NCBI RefSeq assembly: GCF_014194695.1
Contig: NZ_JACIAH010000005.1
Coordinates: forward strand, 186,001 to 250,000
Length of the DNA: 64,000 nt
From: Rhizobium sp. BK399
GTDB taxonomy: Bacteria > Pseudomonadota > Alphaproteobacteria > Rhizobiales > Rhizobiaceae
Reading direction: 5' to 3'
Shown: positions 12,239 to 56,592 of the stretch, piece by piece
How the letters are laid out: the number at the start of each line of letters is the position of its first letter
Numbering within the stretch: position 1 is the first letter of the stretch
Translations under genes and position numbers: made by a program
Notes under the pieces: generated by a model
The model's database searches: none
Told to the model about the DNA's origin: nothing
What the model saw: the letters and a program-made list of their open reading frames with translations, nothing else

Positions 12239-12679
12239 CTACTTCAATGAGCCTTCCATCGTCCTGGCAATGCCGCAGGTGTTCCGAACGATGGAGATGT
12301 TGTCTGCTTCGTTGGGCTGCTGACCATTCTCTTCGAAGGCGGCTCGCGATAGTTCGATTGACTGCCGGCAGCGTTCGATGTTGTCTGCCAATAGTTGGGC
12401 GGCACGCGCCGAAGGTTTTCCCTGGAGATATGCCGGGCGTTGCCCGGCGATCTCGCCCGCGTCCTTCACCATCGCGAGAGCCTCGATGTAATATGGCTCC
12501 ACGTCACGATAACGCGTGCGTTGCGGCGCCTTCGTCCCCAGCGCGGTTTCGATCTTGGTCAGACTGGAGTGTGCACCCTCAAGCTTCGTATAGACGGCCT
12601 CGTTGTAAGCAGGCGCAAAGATTGCGCATCCGTCGAGCGGAATCGTCACGGCCAGCAAGAGTAGATAATGTTTCGGCAT
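12239..12679 (-). CDS. Putative lipoprotein of unknown function
   Basis: A 146-residue protein starting MPKHYLLLLAVTIPLDGCAIF: a short basic n-region, hydrophobic core and lipobox LDGC, so the mature protein should begin at Cys18 with a lipid anchor (the residue after Cys is Ala, compatible with outer-membrane sorting). The mature part is mainly helical (NEAVYTKLEGAHSSLTKIETALG, SARAAQLLADNIERCRQSIELSRAAFEE) with two further cysteines. I do not recognise a family. The ATG at 12679 is chosen because it puts the signal peptide at the N-terminus; the open frame extends further. The unknown helical gene follows 11 bases after its stop. Confidence 0.65.
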   Translation of the reverse strand: MPKHYLLLLAVTIPLDGCAIFAPAYNEAVYTKLEGAHSSLTKIETALGTKAPQRTRYRDVEPYYIEALAMVKDAGEIAGQRPAYLQGKPSARAAQLLADNIERCRQSIELSRAAFEENGQQPNEADNISIVRNTCGIARTMEGSLK

Positions 12680-52447: not shown

Positions 52448-53497
52448 TTATGCCAGCGCTTCGATCGCCTTGCGCACCGCTGCCTCGTCCATTTCGTGCA
52501 GACCGATGACAACAAGACGGGTGCCGCGCGCTTCGCCAGGCGCCCAGGCGCGATCGAAATAGTGGTCGATACGGCTGCCGACTGCCTGCAACTGCAGACG
52601 CATCGGCTTGCCGGGGACATCGACGAATCCCTTGAGCCGCAGCACGTCATGCTCGCCGATGATGCCTTTCAGGGCATCTACGAAGGCTGCCGGATCGGCA
52701 ATAGCGCCGAGTTCCACCACGAAGCTGTCGAACTCATCGTGATCGTGGGGAACGCCATCCTCATGCTCGAGCTCATGATGAGACTTGCGATTGACCACAT
52801 CGCCTTCGGTGCCAACGCCGAGCCCGAGCAGCACGCTCGCGGGAACCTCGCCGTTGCGCGCCTCGATCATGACGGGCTTGCGGGCAATGCGCGACGCGAC
52901 CTCATCGCGCACGCGGCCAAGACCGTCGGCATCGAGAAGATCGGTCTTGTTGAGCACGATCAGATCGGCGCAGGTCAGCTGGTCCTCGAAAAGCTCCTCG
53001 ATCGGGCTCTCGTGGTCGAGCGACTCGTCTTCCACGCGACGAGCCTCGACGGCATCGTGATCATCCGCGAAGCGGCCAGCGGCAACGGCGGCGCTGTCGA
53101 CGACAGTAATCACGCCATCGACGGTGACCTGCGTGCGGATATCAGGCCAGTTGAAGGCGGCAACGAGCGGCTGCGGCAGCGCGAGGCCTGAGGTTTCGAT
53201 GACGATATGATCAGGGCGCTGCTCGCGCTCCAGAAGCTTGGTCATCGTCGGAATGAAATCGTCGGCAACCGTGCAGCAGATGCAGCCGTTGGTGAGCTCG
53301 ATGATATCGTCCTCGGTGCAATTCTCCGCGCCGCAGCCCTTCAGCACCTCGCCGTCGACACCGAGATCGCCGAACTCGTTGATGATAAGCGCGATCTTCT
53401 TGCCGTTCGTATTGGAGAGGAGATTGCGGATCATCGTCGTCTTGCCGGCGCCGAGGAAGCCGGTGATCACGGTCGCCGGGATTTTCTGCTGGTTCAT
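52448..53497 (-). CDS. cobW: CobW GTPase (cobalt chaperone-type COG0523 protein)
   Basis: A 349-residue G3E GTPase of COG0523. The P-loop is GFLGAGKTT (residues 13-21), the metal-binding CxCC motif is in NGCICCTVADDF, the guanine-specificity motif is VLNKTDLLD, and a His/Asp/Glu-rich stretch (HHELEHEDGVPHDHDEFD) precedes the C-terminal domain. It is proposed to supply cobalt to CobN. The likely start is ATG 53497 (MNQQKIPATV), preceded by AAGGG; TTG 53506 overlaps the cobP stop. It lies between cobP and cobN in the riboswitch-controlled operon. Confidence 0.95.
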   Translation of the reverse strand: MNQQKIPATVITGFLGAGKTTMIRNLLSNTNGKKIALIINEFGDLGVDGEVLKGCGAENCTEDDIIELTNGCICCTVADDFIPTMTKLLEREQRPDHIVIETSGLALPQPLVAAFNWPDIRTQVTVDGVITVVDSAAVAAGRFADDHDAVEARRVEDESLDHESPIEELFEDQLTCADLIVLNKTDLLDADGLGRVRDEVASRIARKPVMIEARNGEVPASVLLGLGVGTEGDVVNRKSHHELEHEDGVPHDHDEFDSFVVELGAIADPAAFVDALKGIIGEHDVLRLKGFVDVPGKPMRLQLQAVGSRIDHYFDRAWAPGEARGTRLVVIGLHEMDEAAVRKAIEALA

Positions 53498-53502
53498 GAA
53501 AT

Positions 53503-54027
53503 TCAACCCTTCATCTTCAGCGGCAGACCTGCCGCGATAAAATACACGTCCGCGGCCTCTGCCGCGATCATTTGATGCAAGCGACCGGCGTGATCGCGGA
53601 ATTCCCGCGCCATGCGGTTCTCAGGAACGATGCCCAGCCCGACCTCGTTGGAAACGATAACGAGCCGTGCACGCGCTGTCGGCAGATACGCGGCTAGCGA
53701 AGCAAACTCGGCCTCCATGTCGCGCTCCTCCATCATCAGATTGGTGACCCATAGCGTCAGGCAATCGACAAGGATCGCCCGCCCCTCGCCGTCGATCGCT
53801 CGCAGGCAGCCGACTAGATCAAGAGGCTCTTCATGGGTGTGCCAGAGCTCGCCACGATCGGCCTTGTGCTTGTCGATCCGGGCGCGCATTTCCTCGTCCC
53901 AGGCCCGGCCCGTCGCCACGTAATGGCGCTCCAGCTCGCTTGAGGCGACCAGTTGTTCGGCAAAACGTGATTTTCCCGAGCGCGCGCCGCCCAGGACGAA
54001 GGTCGCACCGGAGGATATCGGGCTCAT
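53503..54027 (-). CDS. cobP: Adenosylcobinamide kinase/guanylyltransferase CobP
   Basis: A 174-residue bifunctional enzyme (CobU/CobP family): phosphorylates adenosylcobinamide and adds GMP. The P-loop is [15 protein letters not shown] (GGARSGKS at 13-20), followed by [38 protein letters not shown] and [30 protein letters not shown], all characteristic. ATG 54027 shares its ATGA with the stop of an upstream 29-codon reading frame and has no strong ribosome-binding site of its own, suggesting translation coupled to that frame. It is first enzyme gene downstream of the cobalamin riboswitch. Confidence 0.95.
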
Positions 54028-54113
54028 GGCAGATGATATCCGATCTGCGGGACGCTGCCGCAAAGGAGCGGAATGGCTGTTGGACGCAGCCGAAAACTCT
54101 TTTGTTCAGCCAT
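54024..54113 (-). CDS. Unannotated 29-residue leader peptide between cobalamin riboswitch and cobP
   Basis: ATG at 54113 is preceded by GGAGG with 5-base spacing, the best ribosome-binding site in the region. The frame encodes [20 protein letters not shown] and nine further residues, ending at TGA 54024-54026 that overlaps the cobP ATG (ATGA). I do not recognise the peptide. The site lies just 3' of the riboswitch, where a ligand-dependent fold could hide the GGAGG. The simplest reading is that ribosomes start here and reinitiate at cobP, so the riboswitch controls cobP through this frame. Coding is inferred from the RBS, the overlap and position, not from homology. Confidence 0.6.
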
Positions 54114-54114
54114 G

Positions 54115-54310
54115 ACAACCTCCGTGCTGGCAGCGGGCATAAGCCCAGGGATGGGCTTCTCGCCCGGCACGGTTGGCAGGTCTCCTGGCTCGCGGGTCTT
54201 GGCCGCGATCGGGGCGGACCGGAAACCGGTCGCCCCAGATCGTGCCAGCGGATTTTCCTCGCCTTCCCGGCTGCATTTCATGAAAAGGCGGACGATTCGT
54301 AGACGTAAGA
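54115..54310 (-). promoter_or_regulatory. Adenosylcobalamin riboswitch upstream of cobP-cobW-cobN-cobO
   Basis: On the minus strand the B12 box AGCCAGGAGACCTGCC is at 54175-54190. 5' of it are elements expected for this class: a segment like TGCAGCCGGGAAG and GAGGAAAATCC (about 54254-54280), and a GC-rich paired region (GGGGCGACCGG...CCGGTCCGCCCC). The B12 box is followed by further stems up to the GGAGG of the leader frame at 54113. High adenosylcobalamin would repress the downstream genes. Exact borders are estimated. Confidence 0.9.
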
Positions 54311-54798
54311 GGCGTCCTGCCCCGGTTGATCATGATGCACTGCCAGTGACTTTTCCGTCGCCATCTCCGCGCCGCCCGCCTGCACCATTGCAGGCTGTCA
54401 TCAACGCGAAAACAACGCCGGACGGAAAACCCTGACCGCTCTACAGTCGCGGGGTCGGCTATGATGACGGTGCCCGGATTGGGTCCACCGCTTCACATTC
54501 CCTTTTCATCCGCACCGATTCAACCGGTCCGGAACCATCCGTTGTGAACTCATCGTTAGGCAAGGCCCTTGGTGAAGTCAATCGGAAGCCGATGCGCGCC
54601 TCGGCACGGTATACTGCCGGACCCGCTCTCAACACGACCTTCTCTACCAAATTCATCGTCTTTTATCAGTTACTTACGTCACAAATTATTGTTGCGATCG
54701 CCGGTCTTTTGCCGCAATTGCGTCGCAAGCGGGTCGCGCCACCGATTTGCCCTTCCCTCCCTTCCACTTGATCGCGCCCACTGCCGCCTAGTTTTCCC
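54311..54798. other. Gap between the cobalamin riboswitch and the ClC channel gene; no confident gene
   Basis: Divergent promoter region of cobP (minus) and the ClC gene (plus). Short open frames exist (for example around 54544-54771) but have no ribosome-binding site or recognisable composition. AT-rich sequence at 54657-54700 (TTTTATCAGTTACTTACG) probably contributes to a promoter. I see no repeat or RNA beyond the riboswitch. Confidence 0.5.
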
Positions 54799-56592
54799 GT
54801 GATGCTCCTAAGAATCGATATCCGCCGTTTCGGTCCATTCCATACCCTTCTCGACATCGGGCGGATGCGCGCACTGCTGCGACGCACTGAGCTGGGGATG
54901 GTCATCGCGGGCGCGATCGTCGGCGTTATCTCCGGACTTGCGGTGACGGGCATGAGCCTCGTTTCCCGCGAAATGCACAGTCTGATCTTCGGAATCAGCG
55001 ATATCGAGCGGCTGAGTTCCTCGCAGATCGACAACAAGCTGCTGTTGCTGACGGCGCCTGTCTGCGGCGGCATACTATTGGGTCTGATGCTCTTCGTGCT
55101 TGCCAAAACGCGCAAGAAGCCGATGGTTGACCCGATCGAGGCTAACGCGCTGCATGGCGGCCGACTATCGCTCACCGACAGTATTCTGGTGGCGGTCCAG
55201 AACCTCATTTCGAACGGCTTCGGCGCTTCAGTGGGCCTAGAGGCCGGCTACACGCAGCTGGCGGCGGGACTGGCCTCGAAGCTTGGACTGAAGCTGCAGC
55301 TTCGCCGATCGGATCTGCGCGTTCTCGTCGGATGCGGTGCCTCGGGTGCGATTGCGGCGGCCTTCAACGCTCCGCTGACCGGCGCCTTCTATGCGTTTGA
55401 GCTGATCATCGGCTCATATACCATCGTCTCGCTGACGCCGGTCGTCGTTTCCGCACTGGTATCGACCCAAATTGCACGCCTGCTGGCCGGCAGCGATTTT
55501 CTTATTGACGTCGGTGACTTTGGAACCGTCATGCCTGCAGACTACGTTCCGGCGCTGTTACTCGGTGCATTCTGCGCCGGCGTTGGCATCATGATCATGC
55601 AGGGCGTCGCCTGGATCGAGGAATTGGCTCGCCGGAGTTCCATTGCAACGCCGCTGCGCCCTGCCCTTGGCGGCATCGTCGTCGGCCTGCTCGCGCTGAT
55701 TACGCCGCAGGTGCTGTCGGCCGGTCACGGTGCACTGCACCTCAATCTCGGCCGCGATGTCGCAATTCCGGTGCTTGTCGGCCTTCTTCTTCTCAAGGCA
55801 TTCGCTTCGGCTATCTCGATCGGTTCCGGCTTCAGAGGCGGCCTATTCTTCGCGTCCCTGTTCATGGGTGCACTCCTCGGCAAGCTCTTCGCCTATTCGG
55901 CACCCTATTTCGCTCATGCGACGCTGACACCCGTCATCTACGCGGTCGTCGGCATGAGTTCGCTTGCGGTCGCCGTCATCGGTGGACCGTTGACGATGAC
56001 GTTTCTTGCGCTCGAGATTACCGGCGACTTTCCGATCACGGCGCTCGTGCTTGCGGCGGTGATCACCTCCTCGCTAGTCGTGCGCAGCACCTTCGGTTAC
56101 TCCTTCGCAACATGGCGCTTCCACCTGCGCGGCGAGAGCATCCGGAGCGCGCACGATGTCGGCTGGATCCGTAACCTGACCGTTGACCGGCTGATGCGCG
56201 CCGACGTGAAGACGGCGAATGCCGCCCTCACCATCGACGAGTTCAAGGAGCGCTTCCCCATCGGTTCGGCGCAGCGCGTTGTCCTGGTTGATGACACCGG
56301 CAAATACAGCGGCCTGGTGCTCGTTCCCGATATCTACGCAAACCTGACCGACACCGACGAGACCGGCAAGGATCTGGGAGAATTCATCCGCTTCAAGAAC
56401 GATTTCCTGCAACCGCAAATGAACGCCAAGCAGGCAGCAGCGATCTTTGACAAGACCGAAAGCGAAGCGCTGGCGGTCGTCAATAATCTGATTGAGCGGA
56501 AAGTCGTCGGGCAGCTGAGCGAGGCCTACACCCTACGCCGCTATAGCGAAGAACTGGACCGCCGCCGCCGCGAAATCTCCGGCGAGATCTAA
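54799..56592 (+). CDS. ClC-type chloride channel/antiporter with C-terminal CBS domains
   Basis: A 597-residue membrane protein with about 10-12 hydrophobic helices up to residue 430, then a soluble region. Anion-pathway motifs: NGFGASVGLEAGYTQLAAGLAS (GxExGYTQ, with Glu at the gating-glutamate position), SGAIAAAFNAPLTGAFYAFELI, and SGFRGGLFFASLFMGALLG. The last about 150 residues look like a CBS pair (VDRLMRADVKTANAALTIDEFKERFP, QRVVLVDDTGKYSGLVLVPDIY). The start is GTG 54799 or ATG 54802. Its stop overlaps the convergent cobQ stop by 4 bases. Function: Cl- conduction or Cl-/H+ exchange; acid-stress role is common in the family. Confidence 0.92.
   Translation: MMLLRIDIRRFGPFHTLLDIGRMRALLRRTELGMVIAGAIVGVISGLAVTGMSLVSREMHSLIFGISDIERLSSSQIDNKLLLLTAPVCGGILLGLMLFVLAKTRKKPMVDPIEANALHGGRLSLTDSILVAVQNLISNGFGASVGLEAGYTQLAAGLASKLGLKLQLRRSDLRVLVGCGASGAIAAAFNAPLTGAFYAFELIIGSYTIVSLTPVVVSALVSTQIARLLAGSDFLIDVGDFGTVMPADYVPALLLGAFCAGVGIMIMQGVAWIEELARRSSIATPLRPALGGIVVGLLALITPQVLSAGHGALHLNLGRDVAIPVLVGLLLLKAFASAISIGSGFRGGLFFASLFMGALLGKLFAYSAPYFAHATLTPVIYAVVGMSSLAVAVIGGPLTMTFLALEITGDFPITALVLAAVITSSLVVRSTFGYSFATWRFHLRGESIRSAHDVGWIRNLTVDRLMRADVKTANAALTIDEFKERFPIGSAQRVVLVDDTGKYSGLVLVPDIYANLTDTDETGKDLGEFIRFKNDFLQPQMNAKQAAAIFDKTESEALAVVNNLIERKVVGQLSEAYTLRRYSEELDRRRREISGEI

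Follow-up and report, generated by a model that had tools for sequence, protein, structure and literature searches.

The window examined here, a stretch of 64,000 nucleotides from Rhizobium sp. BK399, carries on its minus strand a cobalamin riboswitch followed by a short leader frame, cobP, and cobW. cobP (53503-54027) encodes a CobU-type adenosylcobinamide kinase/guanylyltransferase of 174 amino acids (PF02283, E=2.9e-62; NF004469, E=2.3e-65), and the next gene of the operon is cobW (52448-53497; TIGR02475 CobW, E=4.7e-172). A chloride-channel gene (54799-56589; PF00654, E=6.5e-65) diverges from the riboswitch-cobP operon, and a cobQ-type gene (PF07685) lies on the minus strand at 58043-56592. 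A sequence-only reading of the locus had described a B12 box, a GGAGG motif, and an ATG at 54113 opening a 29-codon frame that shares ATGA with cobP, and this layout was confirmed in the sequence. The Shine-Dalgarno (SD) motif GGAGG of the leader is located at 54119-54123, with a spacer of 5 nt before the ATG (54113-54111); the leader frame, 29 codons plus stop, occupies 54024-54113; and the ATGA overlap (54024-54027) consists of the leader TGA (54026-54024) and the cobP ATG (54027-54025). The leader also lies in phase inside an 85-codon frame opening at an ATG at 54281. The anti-SD duplex was calculated at -10.2 kcal/mol for the leader start and at -3.3 kcal/mol for cobP of the window, with a background median of -2.4 kcal/mol at random positions.

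When the window was searched against Rfam, no match reached the gathering score. Under relaxed settings, RF00174 matched at 54407-54554 (25.8 bits) and at 54158-54307 (21.0 bits), the gathering score being 31.5; we infer that the two matches are halves of one riboswitch, an aptamer split by a long internal insert, with approximate limits of 54175-54554. The B12 box GCCAGGAGACCTGCC (54175-54189), an exact match, was the sole match to this motif in the window when up to 2 mismatches were allowed. About 265 nt ahead of the box, and in the expected order, stand AAAGGGAA and CCCCGCGACTGT, which are conserved in close relatives and which we take to be landmarks of cobalamin riboswitches. An outer helix was assigned by eye between the 5' strand ACGGATGG (54535-54542) and CCAACCGT after the B12 box, and matching changes of the two strands, such as ATTGG/CCAAT, were noted by eye in other genera. 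Elsewhere in the window's genome, a strong RF00174 match of 115.4 bits (L262, G000:C5:115103-115283) lies beside bluB (TIGR02476, E=7.1e-90).

Folding of the stretch between box and start predicted an expression platform with hairpins (54122-54174), in which the arms CCGTGC (54172-54167) and GCACGG (54127-54122) flank the SD; the arm complement was found in 119 of 148 distinct box-to-start stretches having GCACG. The platform fold was uninformative as to the state in which the start is closed. In addition, the SD-start-Ala2 stretch (54111-54123) is complementary to the B12 box, with 13 predicted pairs, two of which are broken, in one row each, among 128 distinct Rhizobium rows. The energy of this pairing is not unusual, being reached by 4.6% of random SD+AUG tails and by 13.5% of tail shuffles, and as the ligand-free fold it would give the switch a sign opposite to that of known B12 switches. 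Repression by the ligand is assumed here on the established behavior of cobalamin riboswitches.

Leader start and stop across Rhizobium

A DNA search of 148 Rhizobium genomes yielded a match in 147, and all 147 loci were fetched. The query contained the SD block and loci were picked by DNA similarity; because 147 of the 148 genomes matched, little can have been missed despite the presence of the block in the query. The dropped rows were a second copy of the window's own locus (L001), a locus on a contig that ends before cobP (L068), and a genome that is 82% complete and gave no match (G110). With L068 ending too early, the leader was followed to cobP in 146 genomes, and for the start of cobP the ATG closest to the P-loop motif was used, with the leader left out of account.

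The SD and start block was present behind the B12 box in all 147 loci, and in most genomes DNA similarity stops just past the leader start. The block occurred as GGAGGTTGTCATGGC in 76 loci, GGAGGTTGTTTTGGC in 34, GGAGGTTGTCTTGGC in 30, and GGAGGTTGTCGTGGC in 5, together with two single variants with ATG. ATG served as the start codon in 78 loci, TTG in 64, and GTG in 5; CTG was never seen. The second codon encoded alanine (Ala2) in 146/146 leaders. Beyond this point the body sequence is not conserved, and leader length ranges from 17 to 164 codons when a fused case is set aside, so that the fixed length of 29 codons in the earlier description is a local feature.

The cobP ATG lies within -4 to +3 nt of the end of the leader stop in 136 of the 146 loci, with offsets of -4 in 88, -1 in 5, +2 in 9, and +3 in 34. 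The ten outlying offsets were -510 (the fused L066), -13 (L105), +6 (L132), +9 (L148), +15 (L144), +16 (L108, L145, L146, and L147), and +223 (L033). In L066 (genome G147), the leader is fused in frame to cobP, giving 262 codons, and the stop is kept in its relatives. A comparable case was encountered in Sinorhizobium meliloti, where the start stands after CACGGAGGTTGTC upstream of cobP: in strain Ak57 (CP090106; L326:2909-3502), the GTG after the block reads without a stop into the annotated cobU. The start annotated for cobU in Ak57 (2975) may be misplaced downstream by 22 codons; alternatively, the strain may carry a natural leader-cobP fusion.

Origin of the leader start

In the family search, cobP was found in 102 of 121 genomes. 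Outside Rhizobium, 88 loci from 100 family hits were examined (12 were not fetched), and 87 of them had the cobP motif (L302 was without it). A CbtB-like ORF was present in 50 of these loci. As in the Rhizobium leaders, CbtB begins at the same CACGGAGGTTG block in 28 of the 50, which have the order riboswitch-cbtB-cbtA-cobP, at the start position that the leader ATG occupies in the window; no such block was found at the start of the other 22. Pfam confirmed two of the 28 as CbtB (PF09489, E=2.4e-18 and 1.2e-16), and the CbtB annotated on a Nitratireductor plasmid also opens at a CACGGAGGTTG block. On the plasmid of Nitratireductor rhodophyticola (L329, NZ_CP139721), the B12 box and the annotated CbtB and CbtA are flanked by a copper-translocating ATPase on one side and a multicopper oxidase on the other, and the stretch shown is without a cob gene.

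The block was followed by a short leader in 17 loci outside Rhizobium, and in 14 of them the stop falls -16 to +12 nt from a cobP start. Of the candidate cobP starts in these genera, the one closest to the stop of the leader was used, a choice that favors coupling. In the other three (L162, L272, and L303) the stop stands 112-298 nt before cobP. By eye, the L303 leader resembles a CbtB minus its middle (compare L277), and a Pfam search with this shortened CbtB-like leader gave no match. In L174, L280, L286, and L296, the riboswitch is followed by a HupE/UreJ-like ORF instead of cbtB (one matched PF04955 at 8.6e-13), with CACGGGAGTTG replacing CACGGAGGTTG. The remaining loci comprised three with a box and no block and 13 without a box.

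A tree of cobP plus cobW with 55 rows implied six changes between the short-leader and cbtBA states, two of which are forced by well-supported branches; for this count L174, which has a box and a HupE-like ORF, was filed as boxless, and L162, with its stop 298 nt from cobP, as a short leader, the cbtBA labels being unaffected. By itself, the 55-row tree gives no direction between the two states. The window's genome, moreover, has a separate CbtB gene (PF09489, 1.9e-9) beside a weak RF00174 match of 26.6 bits (L263, G000:C4, about 12332-12482). The start position common to leader and cbtB, the apparently shortened CbtB of L303, and this separate CbtB gene by a weak RF00174 match favor a loss of cbtBA in the Rhizobium lineage over a gain. 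The Rhizobium loci share the B12 box, the CACGGAGGTTG block, and the start position with riboswitch-cbtB-cbtA-cobP operons of other Rhizobiaceae (28/50 loci) and differ in what follows, which is a CbtB of 57-62 amino acids in those operons and an unrelated frame ending at cobP in Rhizobium. Given that the same SD and start open cbtB in 28 loci of other genera, the leader is best read as a relic of the cbtB start kept as a translational relay; its frame is probably what remains of the beginning of a cobalt-transporter gene that has disappeared.

A proposed translational relay to cobP and probable selection on the frame

We propose that the cobalamin riboswitch gates initiation at the SD and start at 54123-54111 and not at cobP. 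The gated site would be the old cbtB start. Once the Rhizobium lineage had lost cbtB and cbtA at this site, the SD, the start codon, and the Ala2 codon would have been retained as the 3' end of the riboswitch expression platform. Ribosomes starting there would translate whatever frame intervenes, end translation at or next to the start of cobP, and then reinitiate on cobP. Judged from comparative sequence data, such a riboswitch-gated relic of the cbtB start, relaying ribosomes to cobP by termination-reinitiation, is the likely explanation of the locus. The observations behind it are the conserved SD and start, the open frame, the length changes that preserve phase, the placement of the stop, and the identity of position with the cbtB start; closure of the leader start by the ligand, translation of the leader, and arrival at cobP by reinitiation would be the steps that connect them. 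The coupling model of the sequence-only reading, in which the riboswitch gates the leader and cobP is translated by termination-reinitiation, thus gains support from the comparison with relatives, leader translation and reinitiation themselves being presumed.

According to the accessible portion of a report (PMC11260477), a relay of this type was demonstrated experimentally in Mycobacterium tuberculosis, where a B12 riboswitch is followed by the uORF uPPE2 and by ppe2-cobQ(U). As far as that text goes, the M. tuberculosis locus has the same layout with evidence for termination-reinitiation, and the mechanism is therefore already known. In both cases the riboswitch sets an SD ahead of a short ORF in another frame, this ORF overlaps the downstream gene by AUGA, and B12 genes lie in the downstream operon. 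The downstream gene of M. tuberculosis is without a strong SD, and here the SD is weak for cobP of the window and stronger in much of the genus (see below). The riboswitch of M. tuberculosis, where the authors suggest that ppe2 invaded the locus, belongs to Class IIb and was described for a single organism group, whereas the one described here is of the class with a long peripheral insert and is near-universal in Rhizobium. Moreover, the relay was proved there, whereas here it is deduced from sequence, with a near-neutral leader body and a start derived from cbtB.

An alternative that we regard as unlikely is that leader translation, controlled by the riboswitch, serves mainly to cover the RNA and block Rho-dependent termination, while cobP uses its own ribosome-binding site. 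This would accord with long leaders that are open along their entire length, and also with the SD-like stretch scoring -6 or better that was found before 81 of the 146 cobP genes, compared with 8% of random positions. The earlier statement that cobP lacks a strong ribosome-binding site consequently stands for the window (-3.3 kcal/mol) but not across the genus, and where cobP has a moderate SD, as in roughly half of the loci, this may assist reinitiation or permit independent starts. However, a stop within -4 to +3 nt of the cobP ATG in 136/146 loci is nearer than coverage alone requires, and this tight contact of stop and start favors reinitiation over mere protection from Rho. The weak SD of the window's cobP also speaks against this alternative, as does, in the accessible text of the M. 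tuberculosis study, a nostop mutant of ppe2 that argued against Rho as the cause (PMC11260477).

Less probable still is a standby or distance effect, in which ribosomes loaded at the riboswitch SD would arrive at the start of cobP with the frame left untranslated. In the part of the work available to us (PMC9373788), an effect of this kind was proposed for metA behind the SAM-II riboswitch of S. meliloti, where the SD is needed and translation starts 74 nt downstream. That system resembles the present one in that a riboswitch SD serves a start some distance downstream in a related rhizobium; it differs in that two AUG codons lie in the same frame and that a new mode of initiation was proposed, whereas here the leader is usually in another frame than cobP with its stop touching the cobP start. 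With a standby site, neither an open frame, nor in-phase length changes, nor a start pattern restricted to ATG, TTG, and GTG would be expected, and leaders of up to 164 codons also weigh against it.

The open frame, which disfavors a standby site, was scored up to 16 nt before cobP. Among all 146 leaders, the frame of the start was open in 141, frame +1 in 64, and frame +2 in 13; together with the block in 147/147 loci and the stop beside cobP in 136/146, this answers in the affirmative the check, suggested earlier, of whether the leader start and frame are conserved in relatives. Of the 77 leaders of at least 120 nt, 76 were open in the start frame, compared with 9 and 0 in the two others. 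For the 69 shorter leaders the corresponding counts were 65, 55 (frame +1), and 13, and with frame +1 open in 55/69, openness there says little. When the leaders were grouped into 51 sequence clusters, 49 of the 51 representatives were open, compared with 21.9 expected from dinucleotide shuffles, and the long representatives were open in 20/20 cases, compared with 2.6 expected (sd 1.5). Changes of length were also compared between nearest neighbors by cobP (identity of at least 0.88). The start-to-cobP length differed in 57 neighbor pairs, which share members and are not independent events, and the difference was a multiple of three in 51 of them. Four of the six out-of-phase pairs were cases of 95 versus 96 nt, compensated by another stop, and the others involve L033, a real frame break, and L066, the fusion into cobP. 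In the adjoining box-to-start stretch, multiples of three accounted for 0 of 33 length differences, most of which are one recurring 1-nt difference. Taken together, these comparisons are best explained by selection that would keep the frame open and the stop beside cobP while leaving the amino acid sequence nearly free.

The suggestion that the leader might encode a functional peptide did not hold up. dN/dS was computed for 39 disjoint pairs of equal leader length, chosen for leader similarity, with cobP anchored on the P-loop. The value was 0.86 for the leader body (bootstrap 0.72-1.03), near the 0.78 and 0.67 obtained in the two wrong leader frames and unlike the 0.12 of cobP, and a peptide so close to neutral is unlikely to be functional. 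The 51 clusters are unlike one another in sequence, and Pfam returned no family for the leader of the window or for one leader of the R. tropici group. Simple motifs detected repeat pieces of three types in 60/146 leaders, which likewise tells against a selected product. The points in its favor are that the first codons are fairly conserved, including the Ala2 codon, and that leader divergence (dS 0.12, dN 0.11) is below the dS of 0.36 in cobP, so that a constraint at the nucleotide level may exist, although the pairs had been picked for leader similarity. A functional peptide was accordingly rejected on dN/dS, the family search, and the unconserved sequence, and we assign it a very small probability.

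Dispersed palindromic repeats were observed within the leader frame of many Rhizobium genomes, where they are read through in phase. One repeat piece, from the L024 leader, was tested; it recurs at other, scattered places of its own genome (G030), and a weaker relative occurs in the genome of the window.

The least probable reading, an open frame that arose by chance and has no role, draws on the cheapness of an ATGA stop where cobP often starts with ATG-A and on the openness of frame +1 in short leaders, and was ruled out by the openness of long leaders (76/77, with 9 and 0 in the other frames; 20/20 representatives), by the phase of the length changes (51/57), and by the start-codon pattern.

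Relation to earlier work and implications

The riboswitch before cobP of S. meliloti already appears in earlier lists (PMC2573895, PMC2245857), and the accessible portions of these two papers do not mention a leader frame at this riboswitch. According to the available parts of two other reports, the S. meliloti cobU riboswitch was tested with GFP as one among eight (PMC5948670), and Ribo-seq of S. meliloti has been described (PMC10117765). Among the titles listed in searches of open-licence PMC papers, none concerned a rhizobial leader frame that separates a B12 riboswitch from cobP. Relative to those titles, the near-universality of the leader in Rhizobium, the origin of its start from cbtB, and the separation of selection on the frame from selection on the peptide appear to be new.

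We lean towards a general interpretation of the leader as an "empty cistron," the product of which would be irrelevant and which would be selected only to start under the riboswitch, to stay open, and to end at cobP. Such a cistron would arise when cbtBA is lost, would retain the former start codon within the riboswitch, would accept dispersed palindromic repeats as long as phase is kept, and would occasionally lose its stop, giving CobP an N-terminal extension. If this is true, it would be a case in which a reading frame is under selection while its product shows no sign of it, which dN/dS screens and annotation pipelines would miss; it also suggests that the annotated cobP start may be too short in at least one S. 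meliloti strain. The 146 leaders, with 17-164 codons and several stop/start spacings, plus two in-frame fusions, would then form a natural series for the needs of reinitiation, and the Rhizobium loci would show how a riboswitch with a fixed platform is re-targeted once its first gene is lost.
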